DNA of 64,000 nt. Source: Phorcus lineatus. Taxonomy: Eukaryota > Mollusca > Gastropoda > Trochida > Trochidae. The stretch spans positions 11,786,001 to 11,850,000 of the forward strand of contig OV121092.1 in NCBI GenBank assembly GCA_921293015.1, written 5' to 3'. Position numbers and translations under genes: made by a program. This document shows, one piece after another, positions 4,351-53,200 of the stretch; the stretch's first letter is position 1, and each line of letters starts with the position of its first letter. The notes under the pieces are model-generated. The model did no database searches, was not told the DNA's origin, and was given only the letters and a program-made list of their open reading frames with translations.

Positions 4351-7300
4351 GACACAGGTTATCATGACTGTTGGCTGCAGCTACCAATGTGCTCACTCTA
4401 CTTTCAGCTCCGTCAAACGTGGCCAAATCTGAAAGGCAGAAAAACAAAATTTTGTTAAAACTTGGAGGCAAGTTAACATGACAGTGGCAGTATTGACAGA
4501 TGATACTTTGATCCGGATTTAATACGGTTTAAAACATCAGCTCATGGTCTGTCAGTACCCAAATAATAGCTGGGGGCCATTCTCAAATCATTCCCCTTAT
4601 CAACAAGCTGTCCTCCCTGATAAATGAAGACTGAAAGTTCTGACACAACCTTATAAGCTTAATTGTCAATCCAAACTCTGATCATTCCTCCAATCAGTAT
4701 ATATATATAAATAAAGGTTGAAGAATCCAAATTATTTCATGGTACATGAACCTCGACAAGACAATAGGAAGAATTCTGTTCCGTGAATGTGTAGATATAT
4801 TATAACTTAAGTGTATTTTGTAATTTTTATGTGTACAAAAACAATGAAGCTGGTATTTTTTCTGTTAGTTCCAACAAATCATGATCTGGTTTGATATTGA
4901 TATTTCGAAACCTTTTCTCACTTAGTTAACTAAGAATATACAGTTCAAACAACACAAAGCACTCAAATACTCAAAAAATATTTCTATGAAATGAATAGGT
5001 GTACAATTTGCAACATCTGTGTACAATCATTTTAAGACTATCATGTGTACGAAATACTCCAAAAGAGTACAAGTAGGCAGCCCTACATAGGGATCGTACA
5101 AAATCATATTCATACTTACTCTGTAGACGTGTCATGATGGCGTTGACTGCTTTGGTTACCATGGAGATGAGTTGTTCTCCCTCCATATCGACTGGCTCGG
5201 CGCTGGGGTTTGTCTCTTCATGCTTCTAAATGGACAGAGATCAACAGAATATGAAGTTAGGGTGCTTGCAATGAAGGATTTAAAGGTGTGTGTACCATCC
5301 AAACCAATAGATAACCAAGTGGAGAAGTTGCAGCAAAGTTTTGCAATGAAATATGGATAGGTTTGTTGAGATTGTTATTTTTTGTTCAAAAAATATGTGC
5401 ACTTAATTGTTCTCTAACCGAAGTAGCTTTAGAAGCTGAAATAAGTCAACCCGCCTGCATCAAATAAATTCGAACAAACCTGCAGAGGTTTCAGATTCTT
5501 TGAAGAGGATCCTCCTTGGGGTACTATTGCATAAAATCTGCTTATTTTTGCTATATGACAGGTTGTGACTATTTTTAGAATAAAAAATATACAAAAACCA
5601 CATTAAAAACGTGTTTCTCATATATTACCACCCTAACAGGGCCCCAAACCCTATCGGTTGCCATAGCACCAAGGGCCGTAACTCTATTCTCACCACTTAT
5701 CAATCTAGCATGCCAGACAGAATAAGGGGAGGTGGGTGGCCCTACCCCAAGGAGGATCCTCTTCAAAGAATCTGAAACCTCTGCAGGTTTGTTCGATTCT
5801 TTTTCAGAAGGGATCCTCCTTGGGGTACTATTGCATAAAAACAGACTCCCAGAGATCAATATCCTGGAAGTGGTATTCTGTCTGCAACATAAAACATACA
5901 AGGAAGAAACCAAGAAACACTCACCACATCACGTGACTTGCCACGCCTTAGCCCTTGAGAGCACAGTGAGGACCTGGGAATCTACTGATTAAGGCTAAAA
6001 GACGCCCAGATACAGACTTTTAAGCCAAATACCCGCCCCCCCCCCCCCCCCCTTTCTTTTAAAAGAAGGGACTAGGGACATTCTTGCAATCTTAGGAATT
6101 CAACCGAAAGCAGAAGCACCCACCGGGTGTCTTCCGCCAGGGCCCAAAATGCAGTGTTGTTAATATTAGTACGTTAGTACCACAACCAACATGATCAACG
6201 TAACCCTGAAAAGCACATTCAGCTAGAGGGTGTACGACTCTGCCCACTGGAGAGAACCACCTTGCCAAACCGAGCACGCTCACTTGAGTGCTTGTCTAGC
6301 TGGTAATGTCTGATGAACGTGCTAGGCCGGCTCCAGACAGCTGCGGAGCAGATCTCTTCAATGGGCAGGGCCGCAGTGTACGCCTTAGAGGTCGCCACCG
6401 CCCTGACCGAATGAGCCTTCAAACCTTCAGGAGGCTGTAACCCCTTGTGGATGTAGCCCAGACAAATTGCAGAAACGATCAATCTGGAGATGGTCTGTTT
6501 CGTGGCTGCGAGGCCGGCTTTATTCCCGCCATAGCAGCAGAACAATTGCTTATCCTTACGGATTTCCTTCGTTCTTTTTAGATAATGTTTGAGGGTGCGA
6601 CGCACATCAAGGATGTGGGGCTGCGCCGACCTCACCCCTGACGCTGCCGGCTGAAGCATTGCCGGTAGCTCAATAGGGGCCGACACATGGAATGAATGAT
6701 CCACCTTCGGACGGTACGAGTCAGGCAGTCTGATGCTGACTCTGTCCTTATGAAAGACAGTCAGCTCGGGATCCGAGGACATTGCGTGAATATCCCCTAC
6801 CCGCCTGCCTGACGTAACCGCCACCAAGAAAGCCGTCTTCCATGTGAGCAACTGCAGTGAAACTGTACTAAGGTCCCTAAAGGACGGACCTGACAGCCAA
6901 TCAAGCACTTTTGCTAGTTCCCAAGTAGGGCTGATCCTCCGCACCGGCGGCCGGATCCTGTCCACACCTGCTAAGAAACGCTGGACCATCGGATGACTAC
7001 CCAACAGGGCTCCATCCACTGGTATGTGGAATGCGGCAATGGCCGTCGAGTACCCCCTGACCGTCGAGGCGGCTAAGCCATCGTCCAGTCGGGACTGTAA
7101 AAACTCGAGTACCGGCACTAAACCCGCAGAAAAGGGATCGAGTAGCCCTCTATTGCCACACCAGCGCGCATAGCAGGCCCATCTATCCTCGTATTGAACG
7201 TTCGTTGAATCCCTCCTCGAAAGCCAGTATTGTGTCTGCAACTCGTGCAGGAATACCGCTCTCCTGGAGGCGATTCCGGACAGAGGCCAAGCCACCCACT

Positions 7301-10300
7301 GAATCCTGGGATTCGGGTGTGGTGCCCCCTCCTGAGCCAGCAGATCTGGCAGACACGGTAACAGCAAAGGAGGCTGTACCAGATATCTGAGAACCGACAG
7401 AAACCAGCTCTGGGCCGTCCACAGCGGTGTCATGAGGACCAACAGCTGTGGAGGCTGCCTGCCCAACTGCAACAGAACCCTGGGAATCAGGGGCGTAGGC
7501 GGAAAAGCCCACAGCACCCTGCCGGTCCAGTCTACTGCGAAGGCGTCTGAAGCCAGAGCATTTGGGTCTGGTATCCTTGAACAGAACACCGGTGTCTGAT
7601 TCGTCACCCCGGACGCAAACAGATCCACCTGGAACGACCCGTACAACTGGGAGATAAGCCCGAATGTCTCCCGATGGAGCATCCATTCGTACGGTGCCAA
7701 GATGCGCCGGGACAAGGCGTCCGCTCGGACATTGTCCACTCCCGGAAGGTACACTGGCATCACCCGTATGTTGTACTGATCGCACCAGAGCAGGAACTGC
7801 CACGCCTCCTGGAGGAGAGCAGGTGACACCGTTCCCCCCTGTTTCGCAATATACGTCATGGCAGTCTGGTTGTCCATCTCTAGACGTACTGCCCGACCCT
7901 GAGTCAGGTGCAGGAAGCGACTGAAAACCTTCCTCACCGCCCTCAGTTCCAGCACATTGATGTGCATCCTGGACTTGTCCAGGGACCACAGGCCCGAAGC
8001 TGAGTGGTCCCCCAGGACTCCCCCCCAACCTGAGAGGGAAGCGTCCGTCTGAACTGACACCGTCGGCAACGGGGCCTCCAGAGGCAGACCCCTCGACAGG
8101 TTGTCCTCTTTCAGCCACCATTCCAGATGAGTGGTAAGCCACTCCGGAATGGGCACCGATCGCTCCAGACTCTCGGCGTGAGACCACAATCCTGCCAACG
8201 CCTGTTGGACTGGTCTCATCCTCAGCCGAGCCCTCCAGACCACATCCACAGTCGCCGCCATATTCCCCAGCAAACGGAGCCAAGTCCGCGCGGAGTGGTC
8301 TGGTGACTGCAGGAAGTGCTGTGTGGTCTGAATCACCTTGCCCACACGGTCCGGAGCCAACGACACCGTGGCCCGAGCCGTGTCGAACCGAGCCCCCAAG
8401 AACACTAGGTCCTGCGTGGGGGCCAAGTCTGACTTCTTCAGGTTTATTATCCAACCCAGTCTGACAAGAATCTTCAAAATGTCCTGGGTGGCTTCCTGAT
8501 TCAGCGCCCTGGTCAGAGCCCTGATCAACCAGTCGTCCAGGTATGGGTGACAACACCTGCCCTGCGACCTTGCGACTTGCGCTGGAATCAGCATCAGCTT
8601 GGTGAACACCATTGGCGCAGTGGAGATGCCGAAGGGGAGCACACGAAACTGATAGCACACCCCGTCGAAAGCAAACCTGAGGTATTGCTTGAACTGGGGG
8701 TGCATTGGGACATGGAGGTACGCATCCTTGAGGTCGATTGACGACAGCCAATCCCCCGCCTCTACCGACGCTATCACTGACCTCAGAGTCTCCATCTTGA
8801 ACGATGGTACCTCCAGCATTTTGTTCAGATACTTCAGATTCAAAATGGGCCTGTAACCTCCGTCCTTCTTGGTCACCAGGAAGTAAGTCGAGTAATACCC
8901 GTTCTCTTCCTGGCCCAATGGAACAACCTCTATAGCCGCTTTGTCGAGCAGTGCTGCGACCTCGGCACGGAGGACTTCTGCCTTCTCCGGGGAGGATGGC
9001 ACCGGGGTGCGCCTCACTCCGGTAAAAGAAGGTGGCCCAAGCTTCCAAAGAGGCAAATGCCCTTCCCTGAGTGTGGACAGGACCCAGGGGTTGGACGTGA
9101 CTCTCTCCCATTCCGACAGGAAGTTGGACAGTCTGCCCCCCACTGGGAGCTCTGGACAGAGACACTGAATCCCTGCTACCGGCGGCGCTCCGGCCCCCTG
9201 GCAGGTCTCCATCTCTGGACAAGGGCATCGGATCCCTGCTACCGGCGGCACTCCGGCCCCCTGGCAGGTCTCCCGCTCTAGCAGGCGAGGGATTAGTAGC
9301 CCTGGTTGGAGCCCCCTTTCCCCCGAAAAGGCTGCTGGCCCTTAGGCTGCTTGCCCTTCCTGCTCTTGCCCTTCTTCCCTGGATTACCTCCCTTGCCAGA
9401 GCCCTGGTAGAGAGAAGACTCCCACCATTGCTTGACTTTGGCCGGCGGACCACTCGGGATATTCTCCAAGGGGGACTTTCGCTTCCCGGCAGGACCCGAG
9501 CCGCCTTTGGCGGCTTTGGCCCTCTCTAGCCGTTCGGCAAAGTCCTTGATGACTGTCGCCGATCCCGGGAACAGGGCTTGACCCAGTTCATAGGGGAGGG
9601 CGAGCAGTGCATTCTGAGTCGGCTGTGGGAGTGATGAGCAACTCAACCACAGCCTCCGCAGCCCCATCACTGCGGTCATCACCTGGCTCGACGCGCTCCT
9701 AATAGAGTCGCGAGCCAGGTAACTCGACACCTCGGCCAATTGCCTTTGGAGCAGAACCTGTTCGGTCTGCTCCTTCCCCTTCGCCTCAACCATACTCTGA
9801 GCCTGCAAGGAGGCCAGGTATGCCGAGTGAACCGAGACCCGCAACTGTTGCGCCGCATTCCGATAGGTCTCCTCGAAGGAGCGGAACGCGCGCTTCAGAA
9901 GCTGGTCCTGGTACTTAAAGGGGGGCACCCGCCGGCCCGGAAGCCCAATGGCGTCCGGGTTGACCGAGGATAACACATCTTCGTCAACCACCGGCACATC
10001 CAGAAACCCCACCTCCCCTATCGGGTACCTCCTGTTGAGTTCGGGGAGATCGAACCGTGTACGGGTACCCGACAGGAGAGGCGTGATCGCATCAGTGCGT
10101 AGGCTGTCGACTATGCGGAGCCGCGTCTGTGCGACCTTGCGCTTGGCAAAGGCCCCACCAGGTAGACGGAACTCAGCCTCATCCGACTCCTTCTCTTGAA
10201 CGACCACCTGAGGGAAGGCTACCGCGAACTTGTCGCGGACCCCCCTCAAGGCTTCGGAAATTGGGCGGTCGGAAGGATCCAATTCCGCACCCCCACCGAC

Positions 10301-13300
10301 CTCCATCTCCTCCTCCGAGCCATCCCCCGTCACCTCCGAGTCCTGCACGGACGAGGTTTCTGAGGAATGGCTTGGAGGAGCAAACGAAGGTAGCAAGGGG
10401 ATCCGGAACCGAGACCCGCCGGCCTCCGGTCGTTCCCGAGAAGGACCCGGAAGAGCTGGTCCAGACGCGGACCCGGACGCAGCAGCGCCCGGGTCCTGGC
10501 TCTTGGGGTTGCCGGTTCCCCCCGACCTCTCGACGGTCTCGAGATCATTCGGGGGGTCCCGTGTTATGGTGCTGGTAGGGGTCCGGCTAGGTCCGGCCCT
10601 CAGCTCCGGCCAGCTCAAGGCATCACCCGGGCCCCTGCCCAGGTTATCCCCAGCCCCGGTACCGGCCCCGGTCCCGAAGGACCCGGTCGGTCTGGCATCC
10701 GGACCCGCCGGGGGAACTGACGCCCGAATCTCCTTGCGGAGCTCCGACATCAGATCCCCCATCAGGCCCTTCATTTGCCCCTTAATTAGAGAGTTAATTG
10801 TGTCAAGTGTAGGGGTGATTGGGAGGGCCCTAGCGGAAAACAGCCGGGTGCCCACCTCCGAGTCCGAGCTCTCTTCAGAGGGGATCGGAGGGGACACGAC
10901 TGCCTTCTTCTTACCACCCTTAGCTTTAGATGGGGGGGGTCACTCCCTGCAGACTCTCGCCTGCCTCCAGCATCCCTTTGTAGAAAATGGTGTCTGCCTG
11001 CCTCCTCTTACGGGTCTTATTGCAAAAGGCCTTGCAAACAGCACAGTCCGAGTCGTCGTGCCCTTGCGTCACTAGACACGGAAGGCAGCTAGGGTGTCCA
11101 TCTGTTTGTGGGATGGACGACCCACAGTCAACGCACTTCTTGAACGGCTGTAAGCCAAACAGAAAGATAGTTGACAACTACCAAAGGGAGGGGGTGGGGG
11201 AGTGCATATGTAAATCTAAGTAAATATATAATCCTAAGATATATAGATACTAAAAGATAAACGGCCGCGGCATAAATAGTGAAAAGCAACTCATAAAGCA
11301 AGCACTACAACCACAGCCTGAAATAAAAAGAGCATGTAAACAACATGGCTTGCCCCTCGAAAAAACGAAAGTTTTCATCAAGTTAACAACCAGGTGAAAA
11401 CGATCGCCATCGACGTAAAGAGATGCTTATTAATACATAATAAGAATAACATCAAGTGCCAAACATTAGCTGATTCCATACGAAAGATATCTATTTTCCA
11501 CCTAGTCGGGAAAAACAATCTCCGAGAATCCGCCATGTTTGTCTCTTTTCCCGCGCACGCACGAAGCACGTGGTTCGAAATGCTTGGGAAAAGCCTAAGT
11601 CACAACGCGATGGAATGCGAAAAAATGCGAACCTATTCTAAACTACGTTTAGCAATAAAGGTTACCATACATTTGTTTCTTTCTCCATGTCTCTTTTTCT
11701 TAGATACTTCCGTGAAAAACTTAGCAAAACTTCTGAAGTCGAAAACCACGTCCTCTCTCTTCAATGACAGATTGATAAGTGGTGAGAATAGAGTTACGGC
11801 CCTTGGTGCTATGGCAACCGATAGGGTTTGGGGCCCTGTTAGGGTGGTAATATATGAGAAACACGTTTTTAATGTGGTTTTTGTATATTTTTTATTCTAA
11901 AAATAGTCACAACCTGTCATATAGCAAAAATAAGCAGATTTTATGCAATAGTACCCCAAGGAGGATCCCTTCTGAAAAAGAATCATGAGGCCAATCACTA
12001 AATGCATGTATGTGGAAGTAGAGATACAGGGGGGTCTCAGATTTGCACAGAGCGAATTGCGAAATTAAATTGCTACTAAGTCTGTTTGAAAGGGATGAAT
12101 TATAATGACAGAAACAATTAAAATCTTAACCTTTTTGTGCCAGGTGATATACTCGTCTCTCAGAATGGCTCGGAGGAAGCTATGGAGTTTATACTGCGGC
12201 TGTACAAAGCAGCGAGCTGCCGCCACCATCGAAGCAGTCAGAGGACCATTCACTCCCGTCATGGTCAGGAACTCCGCTATATTCGGCGTCAGTCGGAAAG
12301 GTACAGGTCGATTTGCGTCAAGCTCACCTAATAAATGGGAGAAAGAAAACATATATTTTCAATTCATCTTCATTAGATACCCCTTGATGCTAATGAATCC
12401 CTAATCAATAGATATATTGCACATTTGGAATTGATTTAATGAAATATGTTCTTATGACTGACACCATTATAGATATTTGACAACTGAAAAGGCAAATTTA
12501 AGTTTATTTTGAAAATTCTGTAAAACCTATTCTTACCAACATATTCCTAATTCCACTCGAATTTGATTGAATATAAACACTTTAGCCATTGAATAAATCA
12601 TACACAACGACTTATCATCACTTGGTAACAAAGACCACATCCAAAAATGTGAAACTCCCTTAGAAGAAGAACAGCATGATTTTCTGGATAACAACTTCAT
12701 AATTGTTAAAAATTGCGACATTTCAGGGTGTATACTTACTCCACAAGTTTGGTTGTGGGGAATCCTTTAAGAAAAATTATGTATGTGCAGAAAAACTCTG
12801 AGACATAGAAAAGCTAAAGATGTCAAAGCTAACCTGTCTGATCGTCGATGTCGAACTTGAAGTAGGAGATGTTGAGATACCCGCAGTCCTGGTGGAGGTA
12901 CATCATGTCGGGGTTCATCCGGGACAGGTGCAGGATAAACTCAGCAAAACCCATAAGTGCCAGCTGGATTGTCAACTGGAGAGAGAAAATAACACAAGTT
13001 CATTTTGAGGTCAGAGAGGATTATGAAGAAAATGTGTGTAAGCTTGACAATAATTTTAGATAAAGAGGGAAAATAGCAAATCCATTACATTACACGTTTT
13101 ACAGGATTGTACACCATCACCCATCTATTCAGGTAAATATCTTATAGTTCAAACATGATTTCACTTATTTACTGAAGGCAAAGTTCTGAGTTGATCACTT
13201 TTTCTCTCAAGTCCACACTGTAGTTGTTAGCTAGGCTATTGTGATTGCCAGATTAAGGTTACATGATTCCACATTATGATATAATGGAATAGATCTTAAC

Positions 13301-23200: not shown

Positions 23201-26200
23201 AGGCATTGTAATTCCCAAAGCTGGAATGTAGGATGCTTCAAGGTGCCCCTCCCTTCCTTCCTTGTAAAGGAAGTGCTCAGTATAACCATATTTCTACCAC
23301 CATGAACATTATTAGGAAGAAACCCCTGGTTCCTTTTAGAAATAAACATTTAGGCAATGATATTTAAGTCTCAGATGGATAGCTGAACTGATCATTTGGT
23401 ACAAGAAGGGCTAAACTAGAGTGTAAAATTCTTGATTTTGATATGGCTGTAAATGAACAAGGAAATTGTTAACCCAAATATTTTATATTTATATCAGAAC
23501 ATACCGGATCCAATGATCTTCCCACAATCGATATTCCGGTAGGACAGTCGGCGACGCATTTGCAGAGTTGTGATCTTGTCTTGCTTTTGTTAGTGCCTGT
23601 TGATACAAATATATACATATATAAGCTTTAGATAAACTATATAAACCTGATGAAAATGATAGAAAGCAAATTTTTTTTCTCACTATCAGGTTAAAAAGGT
23701 ATGAGATTGGTTCTTAAGAGAAAATATAGGTAGTCATAGACTAGATTTCTCTGCTTACCCCTTCAAAGGCATTCTGTGCCTGTTCGAAGAAGCCGTGCTG
23801 CTCGTAAGCGATGGCGGTTGTTGTCTCGGTGTACTTGGCTCTCTTAGCCCACAGCCCCGCCCACATGTCTTCCTCCTTCAGCAGCGAGTACAGGTCACAC
23901 AGGGCGTCAAGTGTCTCCTAAAGGAAAATATATAAGGATATGTGAAAATTCGAACAAACCTGCAGAGGTTTCTGATTCTTTGAAGGGGATCCTCCTTGGG
24001 GTACTACTGCATAAAATCTGTATATTTTTGCTACATGACAGGTTGTGACTATTTTTTCAATAAAAAATATACAAAAAAACACTCAAAACTTGTTTTTGTA
24101 CTTTCCACCACCCTAACAGGGCCCCTTCCCTGGCGATAACTAGTCCGCCAGGGCCGGTAACTCCATTAGTAAACCACTTATCAATCTAGCATAACCAGAC
24201 AGAATAAGGGGAGGTGGGTGGCCTTACCCCAAGGAGGATCCCCTTCAAAGAATCAGAAACCACTGCAGGTTTGTTCGATTCTTTTTCAGGAAGGGATCCT
24301 CCTTGGGGTACTACTGCATAAAAAGAGACTCCCAGAGACAATTTCATGGTAGTGGTCTTCTGTCTGCAGCTCAACTAACCCCTATACAAGGGAAAAAGCG
24401 TAAATTACACTTACCAGATCTCATGGGTAAATCCGCCGCCGGGACTACCTCCAGGCACTGACCCTGGGACCTACTCATACTGGCTAAAACAAGCCTGCTT
24501 ACGACATTTAGCCAAAAACGCCCCCCCCCCCCCCTCCCTCCCCCCCCCCCTCCTCTTTTTGAAAGAAGGTACTAGGGGACTTCTTTAAAACAATCATTAT
24601 CCCTGCAGACAACACCCTTTGGGTGTCTGCCGCTAGGGCCCATAATGTGCATTTCACTGTTAGAAGTTAGTGCGTTAGTACAACCACCACCGTAAAAACA
24701 TCACCCGAAAGCCCGCTCAGCTAGAGGGTGCACGACTCTGCCCACTGGAAAGAACCGACTTGCCAAACCGAGCACGCTCACTCGAGTGCTTGTCTAACTG
24801 GTAATGTCTTACGAACGTGCTAGGCCGGCTCCAAATGGCGGCGGAGCAGATCTCTTCAATGGGCAGAGCCGCCGCATAAGCCTTCGATGTTGCCACCGCT
24901 CTAACCGAATGGGCTTTCAATCCCTCTGGGGGCTGCAGTCCCTTGTGGACGTACCCCAGATAAATAGCCGATACAATCCATCTCGAGATGGTCTGCTTTG
25001 AGGCCGGTAGGCCGGACTTATTCCCACCGTAGCAACAGAACAGCTGTTTATCCTTACGGATTTCCTTAGTTCTTTTAATGTATAACTTGAGGGTGCGACG
25101 CACATCTAAGATGTGGGGTTGCGCCGACCTCACCCCTGAGACTGCTGGCTGCATCATTGCTGGCAGCTCTATCGGGGCCGAGACATGGAAGGAATGATCA
25201 ACCTTTGGCCGGTATGAGTCTGGCAGTCTAATGCTGACTCTGTCTCTGTGAAAGACAGTCAGCTCGGGATCCGAAGACATCGCGTGGATGTCTCCTACCC
25301 GCCTGCCCGACGTGACCGCCACTAAAAAGGCCGCCTTCCACGTCAACAACTGCAAGGAAACAGCACTAGGGTCCCTGAACGCCGGCCCTGACAGCCAGTC
25401 CAGGACATGTGCTAACTCCCAAGTAGGACTAACTCGCCGAATAGGCGGTCTAATCCTGTCCACACCTGCTAGGAAGCGCTGGACCATCGGATGACCCGCA
25501 AAGAGGGCGCCATCCACAGGTACATGAAATGCCGAAATAGCGGTAGAGTACCCCCTAACCGTAGAGGCCGCTAAACCTGCATCCAGCCGGGACTGAAGAA
25601 ACTCCAATACCGGCACTAGGCCCGCAAAAAAGGGATCAAGAATCCCTCGATCACTCCGGACGCAAACAGATCCACCTGGAACGACCCGTACAACTGGGAG
25701 ATAAGCCCGAATATCTCCCGGTGGAGCATCCATTCGTGCGGTGCCAGGATGCGCCGGGCAAGGCGTCCGCTCGGACGTTGTCCACTCCCGGAAGGTACAC
25801 CGGTATCACCCGAATGTTGAACCGGTCGCACCAGAGAAGGAACTGCCACACCTCCTGGAGGAGAGCTGGAGACACCGTTCCCCCCTGCTTTGCGATATAA
25901 GTCATGGCAGTCTGGTTGTCCATCTCCAGACGCACCACCCGACCTCTTACCAAGTAGAGGAGTTGGTCGAAGACCTTCCTCACCGCCCTCAGTTCCAGCA
26001 CATTGATGTGCTCTTTGGACTCGTCCGGAGACCACAGGCCCTAGTGGCAGACATCCGCCCCCCCACCTCCGAATCTGAGCTTTCCTCAGATGGGATCGGG
26101 GGGGAACGCACTGTCTTTTTGCCTTTACCCTTACCACCTGACTTAGACGGGGGGGGTCAGTCCTCTCAGCTCCTGCCCCGCCTCCAACATCCCCTTGTAG

Positions 26201-29200
26201 AATATTGTATCAGCCTGCCTCTTCTTCTTTGTCTTGGCGCAGAACCCGTTACAAAGAGAGCAGTCGCTGTCCACATGACCCCTGGTCACCAGACACGGCA
26301 AACAGGCCTCATGGCCGTCCGCCTGGGGGATATTGACCCCGCAATCAACGCATTTCTTGAATGACTGTAAGCCAAACATAAAAGAAACAGTTGAAAGAAC
26401 TAAAGGGGAAGTGCAAGTGTAATCTAAGTTAATATATAAATGTATATATAAAACTATAGAGAACATGACGGCCGCGATATAATAGTGAGAAGCATCAAAA
26501 GCAAGCACTACAATCACAGCCTGAAACAAAAAAAGCATGTACACAACATGGCTTGCCCACCGATTAACGGAAGTTTTCATCAAGTTAAAAACCAGGTGAA
26601 AACAATCGCCATCGACGTAAAGATGCTTATTAATACATAATAATAATAATAACATCAAGTGCCAAACAACGACTGATTCCAAACGAAAGATATCTATTTT
26701 CCACCTAGTCGGGAAAAACAATCTTCATGAATCCGCCATGTTTGTCTTTTTTCCCGCGCAAAGACGAAGCACATGGCCCGAACTGCTTGGGAAAAGCCTA
26801 AGTCACAACGCGATGGAATGCGATAATGCGAACCTATTCTAAACTACGTTTAGCAATAAAGGTTACCATACATTTGAATCTTTTTCCATTGTCCTTATTT
26901 CTTAGAGAAACTTAGCAACTTTGTGAAGGTTAGAGAACACGTCTTTCCTCTTCAATGACAGATTGATAAGTGGTTTACTAATGGAGTTACCGGCCCTGGC
27001 GGACTAGTTATCGCCAGGGAAGGGGCCCTGTTAGGGTGGTGGAAAGTACAAAAACAAGTTTTGAGTGTTTTTTTGTATATTTTTTATTGAAAAAATAGTC
27101 ACAACCTGTCATGTAGCAAAAATATACAGATTTTATGCAGTAGTACCCCTAGGAGGATCCCTTCCTGAAAAAGAATCACTTGTTCATTAATTTCCTGTGA
27201 GAAGATTGAATGAAATAAAGATAGTAATGAATTCTGCACATCAACAGTTCTGTGCACATAACACAACACAAACATCCCGTACCTGGTGGGGAGAGGTGAC
27301 AGGTTCGAACTCGTATTCACTGCCGCTCCTGTTCTTTGCTGGCGCGGCCGGACTGTTCTCGAAGGCCATCTGTTCCAGTAGAAGACACACTCGATGCCAG
27401 AGGTTGTGAGTTCGGCCAAGGTACTGTAGGGCAAAAAGATCAATAGATTAAAACAGTGCCTTTTAGGACTGGAAATCCAATATTAGAATTACCTCACTAT
27501 TTCTTTCTTACTATTTGTAATTCTAGAACTAATCTGAGGAGCCACCTTGAGAACACATGGTCTGATGGGGACGGCCGGGACACACAACGAGAGACCCTCC
27601 AGGAAGCAATGCACAGCGCTCGGCTGACAGTCCTTCTGGATCACGTGACTCCCACTGCACAGGAACGGCACGAGCTCCGCAGACAGCAACTGGAACAAAT
27701 ATGACAACTTGCATACAACAAAAACTGTTCTGATCCAAAGGATATTTGGAGAAGATTTTCTGAATGACCTCTGTATTATCAACATGTACAATGATTCGGG
27801 TTAATGCTTGATCAAAAGTAGTAGTAGTAATAATAATAATAATAACATTTTTATTGTTAACACACATGGTTACTCTAAAGATCATTGATCTTCTCTCACC
27901 TGCTGCTGTTTCTCTGAGAGGATCTTCCAGATACGGGGGAAGAGGTCGAGCCAGGACATGTGGGCGAGGTCCGTATTGCTGTGGGAGAGCTGGGACAGCG
28001 CCTGGAGGTACTGCACTGTCTGTGGACAACATCACAGATATATATATACTGACCATTATTACTTGCCCCTACAAGATACTTCTTGTTAATGTTTGATTTA
28101 AACATTTTTATTTTAAAAATGGAACTGGACGTCCTTTCACAAAGCCCTAAGGTGATCGTAAGTCTCTAAGGTTACCTTAGTGTAACGTTAAAGAATGGGA
28201 ATTAACGTTAACCTTAGTAAAGGTTGTTTTGTGAAAGGAGACTCTGGATTGGTTAACAAGGAAACCTTTATATGAATAGTTCTTCAGGTTAATATTTATA
28301 CAACATTTTTTCCATTTTCCTTACACAATGTAATTATTCAATATAATCTTATTCTGTAATCAGAATCAGATTGTCTTCTCACCTTCACCTCCCGACAGCT
28401 CTCAAGGAACTTCCCCTCTCTCTGCAGCAGGGTCTGCAGACTCTGTTTGGGGTCCTGAAGGTCTCGCTTTGGGGCGTCCTTACTCAGCGCTTCGTCCGAC
28501 GACACTCCCGACAGCTCCATGTCAATATCCTCCTGCACATGTATTGGACAATTTAGCCATGATAAAATCTGGGCCTTTAGAATCATTTATCATATATAGA
28601 AATAATCATCTGTCTACAACAAAGATGTAAGAATCATGACATTAAACATTTGAATGAGCAAAAAAAATTGAAAACAAACGACCCGATATGTTCTGTTTCA
28701 GATTGAAAACAAAAGGCTTGATATGTTCTGTTCCAGTTTGAACATGAAAACACAGGTATGAAAAAGTTGAAAGGAGACAGCCTTGGGGGAAAAAAACTGC
28801 CCAACAATTGCATAACATGAAAAGAAACAATTCACATAGACTCTTGTCTTAATTAACTCAATTATGTCCATTGAGGAAGTCAGAAAATACATGAGAGGTA
28901 GCGTTGACGTCTATAGTATACAAACAAAAAACATTTTCCCACAAGACTTACCTCCTCTTTATTAGAATCAACAGATTCCACGTCCATTGGTTCCTCCTTC
29001 ATCTTGGAGACGATGGCGAAGGTGGCGCGGTCGTGACTGTCGGCGAGGTTGACCACAGAGCAAGCTGAGGGGAGAAGACTCATAGGAGAGGAGCTGTTGA
29101 TGGTCATCCCGTTCACTGCCACCGAGAGTAGCAGCTGGAGAGAAATACAGAGATATATCACTGGCGTAAAATAGAATGGTCATCATAAAGGATAAGTCGA

Positions 29201-38200: not shown

Positions 38201-41200
38201 CTTTTTATGGTGAATCTGAAACTTTTGACAGGCACGAATGCACAAGGATAATTAAGTCACTGGATTCCTGGGTATATCAGTTTCACAACACATTCACTGT
38301 TTCATTCAACATTCTGGTGAAACTCTCCTCAATTTGACAGGTCTTGCTTTAAAGTCAGCTGTTAAACGTGACTTTCTTCTCCTTTTCTTCTTCAACCATA
38401 TCTGCACAGCAGGAGAACAATCAAAGGTTGTCATCTGGGGACCAAGCATCTTTATCTTCAGCAAGGTGTCCAACTTTTCATTTGAAATCGAAGACCTGTA
38501 TTTTGATTTCAGGCGATTTTGTGCGCTAAAGGAACGCTCACATTCTACACTTGTTATTGTCATGCAAAGTCCAATTTTGGCCAATATGCCACAGTTTGGC
38601 AAAAGAGAAGAGTGCACGTTTATCACTGTTCTGCAAACTTGACTGAATTCGTAATTACAATAAGCCCCTTTCATCATTGCTCGTAGCCTAGGCCATTCAT
38701 TCATAAGTTCAGTTCTGTTGAGGATAGGCTGTACAACAGTAACAGTTTCATCATAGCCTTGCTGCATGTCCCCCTCAACTACCTTCACAGACTTCTCACT
38801 ACCATAGAAATCAGCCAAATGGGCTAAGGCATCATCAGATGATGATGTAGCTGCTCTCACCAAATTAGGATCAAATACTTGTGAGAAATCCCTGAGGATT
38901 TGTCTGTCATCTTGCTGAAATCTAGATCTCATGTTTTTGCAAATGTTCTTGATATACTCCTGTCGAAGCCCTTTGAATTCGCTATCCATGGAACTTCTGT
39001 GAGTAAGCTTGTCTTCACCATAGAATGTATCCCCATCTTTCATGGTAATTTTCTCCTTTATGTCTGCAAGTGCTTGTCCATCAGTTTCCTCCATTGACTG
39101 CAGTTTCTCAAGGGTTGAATCAATCAAAGGCTCAAATTCACTCAACAGCAAGTTTTTCTTTTGTAGTTCAGTGCTCAAAATGGCTAGTTCTGTATGTACA
39201 TCTAACATGAACGCCACAGTCAGGAGAACTTTATAGTCACTGAAATATTTGAATAGTCCCTTTGCAGATGGATTCTTCTCTTCTGCAAATTTGGAGAGTG
39301 TTGCTAATACTGAAGAATAGCATTCAAACACAGCCTCAACTGCAGACTTCAAACCAAGCCATCTAATTGAGTGTGCTTCCTTGATTGTCAGTTCAGGTTC
39401 ATCTAAAAGTTTCTGAATCTTTTTCAGTGTAATTGTTCTATTACTTGAGCCATTTATGAAGAAATACAAGCTGTTAAATTTCTCTCTGAATTTAAGCAAG
39501 TAATCCATTTTCTTGATAGCATCTACACATGCTAAATTCAATCTGTGAGCAACACAGTGAGTTTGTACACAGAAAGGAGAATGTTTGGCTTGCATCTGTT
39601 TTCCGACTCCTGTGCGCTTCCCCATCATAACTGCAGCACCATCTGTAGCTAGGGAAGTACACTTATTCAATTCTAGTCCCATTTTTCTGAATTCCGATAC
39701 AACCCCACCGACCACTGTGTGGGCACAGCCATCATCTAGATGTGTGTTACACAAAAAAGATGTGAGTGCTTCACCGTGTTTTATGTATCTAACGCACACA
39801 GACAATCGTTTGTCAACAGTTATGTCTGTGCTTTCATCAAGCATAATAGCAAACACATCTGATTTTTTTATATCAGTAACAACATGTGTAGTCAGTACTT
39901 GTGATATACAGTGTTGAATATCAGATATTGTGTCCCAGCTCAAGTTTCTGTACTTGACATCAAGTCCATTCATTCTTTGGAGATCCAACAAGTCATTTAT
40001 TCGAACTGAGGGAGTTTCACAGTAAGCAGAATAATATACAGTATTAAACAATATTTTCTCATTTTGTGAAATTGAACTAATGTTTTGGTCATCGTCACAT
40101 TCATTTTCAGTACAGTCTACTTCAGCAGTGTTTTTTTCACATGCATGTTTATGTTCAATGCCATCTCTATGGCGAGTTATGCTCGACATTTGAATGTTAT
40201 TTGTACCCTCGTGGGACCACACATTTGTGAGCTGAAGGGATACTTGATATTTTCTACATATGTTACAGTTCATAACCATCTGCCCTTGTTTATCGCAAAA
40301 TTCAAGCCATGGGAACTTGTTTTTCCATTCAGTCATCGTCTTTTTTGAGACCCTTTCTCCGGTATGCCGTCTTTTCTGGTAATTATGGTGGACATTTTCT
40401 AAAATGTTATTGATGATACTGGTTGCTATTTGTTTTGATTCTTTGCCTTTATTTTCAATGTATGAAAATAATGTGTTTGTTTGTGGTTTGGAAACAGTAG
40501 TCTTCCTCCCTCGTTGCTGTGAGGACGCCATATTTCAACAAATACGTAAAGGCCAAGTTCGAGTGGTAACAATAGTCTCAATATTGGGAGTACTGCAGTT
40601 TAGTTATAATTATCACCAACCCTTACGCTAGACAAACTAACCCTAAGAGATTGTCGTGAAGGATCAAGCGTTAAATATGATAGTCTACAGATATCTTAGG
40701 GCCAAAGAATACAGTGTAACTTAAATCCAAGGGATAATTAGCATGAATAATAACGCAGTCAACTGTAGGTAAAAATAGTCATACTATTTTCACCACTCGA
40801 ACTTGGCCTTAGTCACATGGTAATAAACTCCTAACTGTGCCGTTAATCAAGTCATGTTTGCTGTATAGGCATCACTTTCGCGTAACTGACACTGCCTGAG
40901 AGTAAGACGTTTTAATGTTGACGATTGCTGTTCTAAAAATAGATGAGAGGATGATATCGGCTCTGAAAATTTCGGGCAATAAATAACAAGTACGCAAGTT
41001 TGGACTCTTAATTGCTTTGTGTACGCATGATGATGGGAGTTGTTTGAGTTTTTGAAAAATTGTTAGCGTACTTGTACGCAATAAACTTCAAATGAATTGG
41101 GTTTTCACAAAATTATTTGCGTAAATTACGCAAGTACGCAGCTTATCTGTAGCTCTGTATAAGCTTGAAAATCTTAAGAAGAACTTGAGATGAAGTTTCA

Positions 41201-50200: not shown

Positions 50201-53200
50201 TGCAAAGTAAATATCACAATTAGACCATGGCACATCCAGGTTTATTATTCCATTCGAATAATCAGAACAAAATACTCCAAAATTTGTTAACATCTTTATT
50301 TCTAAGAAAGCAGATTACAACTATCATGCAAAAATCTGTGGCTGAATTTTTTTTTTCTCTTATTCATTGAAAGTGATTAGCAATTGCAGACATAAAATGT
50401 ATTATATCTTAATTCTTATGAATAGTCATAATAGAAGTTGCTGTTAATATGAAGGTTAGAATACGCAGATACTGACCCTCCGTACTTGGCGTACCAGGCT
50501 CGATCATAACACAGAGAACACATCCGATCCACCAGGTACTCAAACAGGGGCAGCTGACATGCCTGTAATATAACATTGAAGAGACCATTGTCTAAATACA
50601 AAGTCACCAATGTGTTGTGATCTGTACGACTTATGAATATAAAGCCCTTATGATCCTAACGCTTAACTCAATCAATTCTGTAACATTTCCATTTCTGATG
50701 GTTGATAGCTTAGGGGTGAAAAAGACAAGCTATTCCAATAAAAATGTCAAGGAGCTAATTTGCTTTAAATGCTAGAACCAAAGATATCTAAAGATGAGAC
50801 AGTCTCCTACCCAGTGTATACAAACAACAAAATAGTCCAACAAACAAATCTTTCAGGCAAGTCTCAGAATGGCTATGCCTGATTCGTTTAAGCGGCGTAT
50901 ATCCAGGACATGGAACCCGTGTACACCGGGTCAGTAACTGGCTCAAGTTGAATCAAGTATGTTTGCGTAAACACAGGAAGCAGTCATCATACCTCAGACT
51001 AGTTTCAAAATACGTTTCATCTATATGATATAAATATTTTTCAAACATTTTGAAATGAGACTTTAAATGTCACTATCAAGTTATGGATGGTTGTTAATAA
51101 TTATACATATTGCCAATTAAATCATTTTGAGTTGTTATTTTAAAAAAATAATGATGACTATAAAATAGTTGTGGAATAGTCGCAACGAAAATATTTATAT
51201 TTGAGATTATATGCCGGGTTCGCCTGTCATTCATTTCAAACCGGCGAATCTGGTGTGCTCCAGAGGCATATGCCGGTTGCCAATAAAGTGACTCGCCGCT
51301 TTCCTCATTTCCGGCGACATACTCCAGATAGTTCGCCAAGTTACCAATCAGGCATAGCCTAATTCAATATCAAAACTACATGAACATGAAAGTGCTAAAG
51401 CACAAATGAAAAAAATCTGTCAAAGAGAACGCCAGCATCTAAACAAATTTCTTAATGAACGTACGCGTTCCTTGCCGCCCAGTATAGTGGTGGCAGTCTC
51501 CAAGATGAGCACTAGCGCGAGGTTTCCTGGTTTACACAACTCCTTCTCCTCGTGGCCCATGATGACGGCGAGTGCGTCGATCAGGATCTGTGTATCCATC
51601 CCTTGTAGCTTGTTCTGTTTGTCACCAACCGGGAAGGGACCACACTGCTGGGAGATAGCGATCATCGTGTAGTGCCGCACCATTGACGCCATGAAAGGAA
51701 GAGCAGTCTGACGAAGCTCCTTGATTGCAGCGGCAACTGTAATAGATTTCAGAATTTCGAAATATATTTACTAACTTTCCTCTCTTCTTGAGGAAAATGT
51801 AATACGGTCTGTGTATGTGAATATGATGGGAAAGGAAAGCCCATCTGACCCTGACACAATGTTAGGCAATATCAGACAGTTCTTATGTAAGAGAAAGAAA
51901 TGAGCTCCAAACAACAACTCACCAAACATTCCAGTGAGGGCCTGCTCGTGCACCTTCCTGGAGTGGGAGTCCGGGTTCTTATACAGAGGACCTGCTGTTG
52001 TCACTATCTCCTTCTCCATGAAACTTAAGGCAAATTTCAGGGCTTAATCATATTCATCATTTATTTATTAGATTCAAAGTTTAGAGATTGAATTATATTC
52101 AGAAATTATTTGGCAACTATTGCAACTTTAAATAAATGACACTCAAAATAAACATGGCATTTGGTATACTCGATTAAGTAACCTCTAAATTTTCATTTTC
52201 AACTGCTCCTACCTGGAGTGAGTAAACAGGTGTGAGAGAGTCTGTTTGCCCTACCTGGAGTGAGTAAACAGGTGTGCGAGAGTCTGTTTGTCCTACCTGG
52301 AGTGAGTAAACAGGTGTGTGAGAGTCTGTATGCCCTTACTGGAGTGAGTAAACAGGTGTGTGAGAGTCTGTTTGTCCTACCTGGAGTGAGTAAACAGGTG
52401 TGTGAGAGTCTGTTTGTCCTACCTGGAGTGAGTAAACAGGTGTGTGAGAGTCTGTTTGTCCTACCTGGAGTGAGTAAACAGGTGTGTGAAAGTCTGTATG
52501 CCCTTACTGGAGTGAGTAAACAGGTGTGTGAGAGTCTGTTTGTCCTACCTGGAGTGAGTAAACAGGTGTGTGAGAGTCTGTTTGTCCTACCTGGAGTGAG
52601 TAAACAGGTGTGTGAGAGTCTGTTTGTCCTACCTGGAGTGAGTAAACAGGTGTGTGAAAGTCTGTTTGTCCTACCTGGAGTGAGTAAACAGGTGTGTGAA
52701 AGTCTGTTTGTCCTACCTGGAGTGAGTAAACAGGTGTGTGAGAGTCTGTTTGTCCTACCTGGAGTGAGTAAACAGGTGTGTGAAAGTCTGTTTGTCCTAC
52801 CTGGAGTGAGTGAACAGGTGTGTGAGAGTCTGTTTGTCCTACCTGGAGTGAGTAAACAGGTGTGTGAGAGTCTGTTTGTCGTCCTCCAAATTCATAACAG
52901 ACACAAGAAAGCATTTGATGAGGTCCCAGGCCTGCCTTCGACTAAACGCGTCAGTAGAGCTGCTCTTCAGGGCCGTCAGCGCAGTGTCGATAGCCTGAGG
53001 GCACATTTACATTGTGATATCACAAATTGTGGAACATATATTTCTCTAGAATGAACATATTTCAATCTACCAACATGTTGATAAGGTATTCAGGATTTTA
53101 AAATTCTATTGAGAGTATTCAATTTCTTTACAGATTCTTGTGGTAAGTATTATGTAAACTTAATCTGATCAAGACAAGAAGAAAGATTTATCAACATTAT

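Follow-up and report, generated by a model that had tools for sequence, protein, structure and literature searches.

In the trochid snail Phorcus lineatus, one exon of the TRRAP gene ends in a minisatellite of 16 head-to-tail units, every one of which carries a GT splice donor, and arrays of this type are not peculiar to TRRAP but form a recurring class in this genome. The positions given below without a contig prefix refer to the window, that is, the whole 64,000-nucleotide stretch that was analysed (contig OV121092.1, positions 11,786,001 to 11,850,000, assembly GCA_921293015.1). We consider it probable that the TRRAP array is an exon-end minisatellite that was born at the exon/intron boundary, that donor 1 is used while the other donors are mostly tolerated decoys, and that the array belongs to a roughly neutral, recurring class. 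The anatomy of the array, its reading frame, the single genomic match of a TRRAP exon and the recurrence of the pattern in other genes are direct results, while use of donor 1, NMD, near-neutrality and the mechanism of growth are inferred from them.

The gene was identified from its hand-joined neighbouring exons, which match the Tra1 HEAT ring (Pfam Tra1_ring PF20206, 4.7e-34) and human TRRAP (7e-69). The exon that bears the array (52843..52994, minus strand; AIDTALTALKSSSTDAFSRRQAWDLIKCFLVSVMNLEDDKQTLTHLFTHS) is 152 nt long, its last 38 nt are the exonic share of the repeat unit, and it ends in phase 2 (..CAC TCC AG|T TTC ATG..); the downstream exon lies at 51923..52023 on the same strand (FMEKEIVTTAGPLYKNPDSHSRKVHEQALTGMF). 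Joining the two at donor 1 gives a protein (HS|S FMEKE) that aligns with human HPNFTEK gap-free at the junction (a single residue is gapped some ten positions later), in agreement with the sequence-only reading, in which the first donor yields the normal TRRAP protein. Donor 1 is an ordinary donor, scoring 9.37 bits with a vertebrate matrix and ranking seventh among 20 TRRAP donors listed by eye. A search of the genome with the peptide of one neighbouring TRRAP exon returned a single match, so a second copy of that exon was not seen.

Other open reading frames are present in the window. In a TRRAP intron, long frames occupy 6219..10939 (minus strand), with ends near 5575..5928 and 11340..11900; one frame has a reverse transcriptase domain and another a LAP2alpha match, and the outer frames have a common peptide on opposite strands, presumably as in DIRS-type elements. 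A second stretch, at 24717..26364 (minus), resembles the C-terminal part of the 6–9 kb frame, and no Pfam match was obtained for 24720..25805. An unbroken frame of 742 amino acids at 38306..40534 (minus) has hAT dimerisation, DUF4371 and zinc-finger domains and represents a transposase-like gene within a TRRAP intron. A tRNA search of the window found none.

Tandem Repeats Finder places the TRRAP array at 52207..52880 (period 42, 16.0 copies, 95% matches, score 1236), and cutting it unit by unit gives 16 head-to-tail 42-bp units from 52880 to 52209 on the minus strand, each with 0–3 base differences from the consensus. A minisatellite-sized repeat (42 bp x 16) hence covers the 3' end of the exon, and both results bear out the claim that this exon end was amplified together with its donor. 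It had also been stated that the unit is repeated 16 times into the intron; the number of units stands, but only 15 copies (units 2–16, 52209..52838, minus) are intronic, unit 1 (52839..52880, minus) being exonic except for its terminal GTAG. Unit 1 consists of 38 exonic nt followed by GTAG, is identical to the array consensus and contains donor 1, presumably the donor in use, whose GT starts at 52842. All 16 units contain a GT donor: CAG|GTAGGA occurs 13 times, CAG|GTAGGG once (unit 15) and CCA|GTAAGG twice, in units 9 (52502..52507, minus; 6.79 bits with the same matrix) and 13 (52334..52339, minus), which lie four units apart and in which the donor has moved one base upstream. AG|GT is found at 14 of the 16 unit junctions, the other two having the AG/TAAG variant, and the donors are identical from -3 to +6 in 13 of the 16 units. 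Units 9/10 and 13/14 have a variant in common, which suggests that a block was duplicated in one four-unit step, and private changes are present in the last two units, 15 and 16. The unit 16 donor (52207..52212, minus) is followed by unique intron sequence, presumed to be the ancestral junction context; this unique remainder of the intron (52024..52206, minus) ends in TTGCCTTAAG, and the length of the intron is 819 nt when counted from donor 1 but 189 nt when counted from donor 16. Two TRRAP units searched against the 957.8-Mb genome gave at least eight matches at E<=0.001, all of them within the TRRAP array. A 272-codon open frame runs antisense to the array at 52236..53054 (plus strand) and is a by-product of the 42-bp period.

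The consequences of splicing at a later donor follow from the phase of the exon. Since a phase-2 exon followed by a GTAR donor reads G|TAR, use of any of donors 2–16 in the TRRAP frame places a TAG codon directly behind AG|G, just past junction 1. The prediction that later donors bring a premature stop is thereby upheld, and its scope, given as most of them, has to be widened to all 15. The TAG as a special feature of TRRAP was rejected: in a comparison of TRRAP with 16 other arrays described below (17 in all, frames read by eye), a first-codon stop occurs in 5/5 phase-2 exons and 0/12 others, and an immediate stop is thus absent from 12 of the 17 arrays compared. Use of the next donor would cause a frameshift in 13 of the 17 arrays, an in-frame stop in three (TRRAP, L082 and L088) and the addition of a stop-free in-frame unit in a single array (L097), so that use of later donors would mostly be harmful and donor 1 must win. 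By simple arithmetic, equal use of the 16 TRRAP donors would leave 6% productive transcripts, and a productive share of one half requires the use of each decoy to stay below 7% of that of donor 1. TRRAP is an essential gene, and each decoy is therefore probably used far less than donor 1.

Similar arrays were searched for throughout the genome as three donors in a row, with the reversed motif as control. For CAGGTAAGT the search gave 95 matches against 24 at a spacing of 15–45 bp and at least 124 against 17 at 46–76 bp, the latter among arrays listed up to C19; CAGGTGAGT gave 62 against 4 and CAGGTRRG 1333 against 541. AAG-form arrays were at most slightly above control (AAGGTAAGT, 71 against 89 and 120 against 89; AAGGTGAGT, 68 against 48), and single CAGGTAAGT sites numbered 8437 against 7384. 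A claim of enrichment from the raw match counts was dropped, because a few long arrays inflate them; after grouping by hand, 13 distinct CAGGTAAGT arrays at 15–45 bp spacing stand against six for the reversed motif. The upstream flanks of 37 arrays (30 CAG|GTRAGT and seven AAG arrays) were read, followed by those of three further donor arrays. From this set were left out three of the 13 CAGGTAAGT arrays of 15–45 bp spacing (C9:56.35, C12:35.67 and C16:49.28 Mb) and two low-complexity AAGGTAAGT arrays; from the CAGGTRRG list, only three arrays were read beyond the 13 CAGGTAAGT arrays.

Judged by eye, 16 of the 30 CAG|GTRAGT arrays have their start at what appears to be the end of a coding exon and extend into the intron (L047, L060, L079, L082, L084, L085, L087, L088, L092, L093, L094, L096, L097, L098, L100 and L101), comprising 8/18 of the CAGGTAAGT and 8/12 of the CAGGTGAGT arrays, while the flanks of three (L089, L099 and L110) allow no exon-end call either way. 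Among the three further donor arrays, L025 (C1:3211451), a locus with 25 CAGGTRRG motifs, resembles an exon-end array and the other two do not. The longest exon-end arrays that were read have 14–46 units, for instance about 46 units of 28 bp in L060 (C1:57758751) and about 15 units of 31 bp in L047 (C1:18761670); others are located at C5:18173970 (L079) and C15:18453407 (L082), and strong CAG|GTAAGT or CAG|GTAAG donors occur in other exon-end arrays. Hence, the view that such an array is unusual does not hold for this genome, in which 16 of 30 other CAG|GTRAGT arrays, and one more, have the appearance of exon-end arrays. Two near-identical exon-end arrays lie about 47 kb apart on opposite strands (L100, C39:43529360; L101, C39:43576255), apparently in a duplicated gene with differing array contents. 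Also, the same 25-bp CAGGTAAGT array is found with the same flank on two chromosomes (L057, C1:43781590; L077, C2:69274838), so that it is probably part of a mobile or duplicated segment.

Protein support for the exons concerned was sought by comparing 15 of 17 exon-end array fragments with Pfam, L060 being too short and L101 omitted as a near-copy. Five of the 15 pass the curated cut-off: L079 (Glyco_transf_22), L084 (Mpv17_PMP22), L085 (Sulfate_transp), L093 (Ams1-like_1st) and L096 (FMO-like). The L085 fragment also matches solved SLC26 chains, and the L093 fragment is an alpha-mannosidase by its Pfam support. The other 10 fragments are below the Pfam cut-off, a coiled coil in L094 falling just under it, and for the arrays without Pfam support exon-end status means a frame and acceptor read by eye. 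The names RMND1-like, kelch-like and PIGB serve only as labels for some of these fragments. A PDB search with the RMND1-like, L098 and L097 fragments gave no confirmation, and the kelch-like fragment of L092 has a weak Pfam match (0.09) and PDB matches that span 9–12 residues only.

To see whether the arrays favour exon ends more strongly than single donor motifs do, we compared them with a background of 19 of 20 picked CAGGTAAGT sites, all within the initial 2.34 Mb of C1, of which one (L125) is clearly at an exon end and one more (L127) possibly so. The comparison of 8/18 CAGGTAAGT arrays with 1–2/19 sites gives a Fisher p of 0.008 or 0.03, and restriction to the 16 arrays with a clear flank (8/16) gives 0.005 or 0.02. 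These values hint at a clustering of donor arrays at exon ends, on the basis of small numbers, calls by eye, a background from one 2.3-Mb stretch and a set that includes the near-copies L057 and L077. Such an excess of CAGGTAAGT arrays at exon ends is not predicted by plain neutrality. None of the seven AAG arrays was placed at an exon end (against 16/30 CAG arrays, p=0.012), and in four of the seven the array filled the piece that was read; the contrast between CAG and AAG forms was dropped, as p rises to 0.09 once only the rows with a clear flank are kept on both sides.

The closest precedent is the minisatellite of human IFI6 (6-16), where, as in TRRAP, the end of an exon is covered by tandem units that supply several donors; its repeat unit is 12 bp. 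The original account of this minisatellite and its several donor sites is reportedly that of Turri et al. (1995, NAR 23:1854). According to PMC4526556, two downstream repeat units of IFI6 act as donors, giving rise to three mRNAs. However, the near donors of IFI6 are reported to be used alternatively and to produce protein isoforms, whereas the 42-bp, phase-2 unit of TRRAP would lead to an immediate stop. Introns derived from AGGT tandem duplications (the Rogers model; examples are ATP2A1, the fission yeast genes SPOG_01682 and SOCG_00815 and a potato RdRp) resemble the TRRAP array in that AG|GT copies set donor and acceptor motifs in register (PMC4974935). Those duplications form a new intron within an exon, while in TRRAP the copies of an existing junction extend into an intron that was already there. 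Recursive splice sites, as presented in PMC8605326, share motifs with TRRAP, namely AG|GT preceded by a stretch rich in pyrimidines and by a branch-like motif; in contrast, the TRRAP intron is short and has many candidate sites in tandem. An intronic tandem repeat that may shift the isoform balance is also found in ABCA7, but it acts via exon skipping, and the abstract of PMC5954066 mentions no donors at an exon end. PMC2809761 deals with NMD as a safeguard behind weak new introns. A literature search, with most subscription papers outside its scope, brought up no paper describing exon-end donor arrays, whether in TRRAP or as a class across a genome.

We hypothesize that the TRRAP array arose by tandem duplication of a 42-bp block straddling the boundary, with 38 nt from the end of the exon and the remainder from the start of the intron, and that it subsequently grew into the intron by slippage or unequal exchange. 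Splicing would occur from the exon-adjacent donor 1, so that the exon stays single copy and the remaining 15 donors are decoys in an intron that is removed; rare use of a decoy would produce transcripts with an immediate TAG, which NMD would clear, leaving the array roughly neutral. With 13 of 16 donors identical at -3..+6, a preference for donor 1 would have to stem from context, such as exon definition, enhancers or the order of synthesis. RNA folding as a means of hiding the donors was rejected, since the array RNA folds less stably than 20/20 shuffles (z=+3.1) and structure does not conceal the decoys. Work in several laboratories reportedly points to a frequent preference for the intron-proximal member of a set of equal donors, and such a bias would work against donor 1. 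The array has also been proposed to be a tunable brake, in which a set share of splicing at later donors generates NMD targets and array length sets TRRAP output. All 15 later donors indeed lead to an immediate in-frame TAG, the productive share would follow 1/(1+15u), where u is the relative use per decoy (57% at u=0.05), and the ABCA7 VNTR in humans shows length-dependent effects on splicing and expression (PMC5954066). The stop is, however, a by-product of phase 2 and GTAR that 12 of 17 arrays lack, and signs of regulation or conservation are not visible in the sequence, making the brake unlikely.

Alternatively, the array could be self-correcting by recursive splicing, the unit end (..CTCACACACCTGTTTACTCACTCCAG|GTAGG) resembling a 3' splice site beside a 5' splice site. 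If a wrong donor k were used, a further splice joining donor 1 to the CAG copy before exon 2 could repair the error, so that every path would give the same mRNA. Each unit provides AG|GT, CAG, a YTNAY match 22 nt upstream and a pyrimidine content of 76% at -20..-4 (against 65% for the acceptor of the intron itself, which ends in TTAAG), and non-adjacent units are at least 84 nt apart, a spacing that permits resplicing; adjacent units, however, are only 42 nt apart, which is under the usual intron size. PMC4974935 reports introns that run across AGGT-bearing tandem copies in two fission yeast genes, and PMC8605326 describes a CAG|GT ratchet point in flies, but known ratchet points occupy long introns and the TRRAP intron has 819 nt. 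We therefore regard both the recursive use of the units and the mending of wrong splices as improbable. The more general idea that any splice choice among AG|GT-phased units gives the same mRNA, so that exon-end arrays gather non-randomly and dozens of donors self-correct and are effectively invisible to selection, is doubtful. Tandem arrays are prone to assembly errors, which could mean a wrong copy number or a false array; yet the units carry distinct variants in a consistent order, the genome is assembled in 74 contigs with long chromosomes, unique sequence flanks the array on both sides and many similar arrays exist elsewhere, and an artefact is thus very unlikely. Regular use of later donors, with translation of the array within TRRAP, has next to no chance of being correct: the array is open in two other frames, but TAG directly follows junction 1 in the TRRAP frame and human TRRAP has no insertion at this junction, and translation in that frame was rejected unless the stop is recoded.

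The observation of the TRRAP array is confirmed, while a special status of TRRAP and a function as a brake are not established, and the recurrence across genes is a more interesting result than the TRRAP array alone. How a choice is made among identical 5' splice sites is an old question that has usually been studied with artificial duplicates. The arrays described here provide identical donors in natural series (16 in TRRAP, about 46 units at C1:57.76 Mb) that end conserved exons and of which only the first donor gives the right protein. If donor 1 always wins, exon context or the order of synthesis overrides site strength; if it does not always win, such genes pay a standing price in NMD whose size depends on repeat length. 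Exon-end arrays also suggest one way in which the output of genes could be changed by minisatellites, and they may offer a natural test of how cells select the correct splice site.
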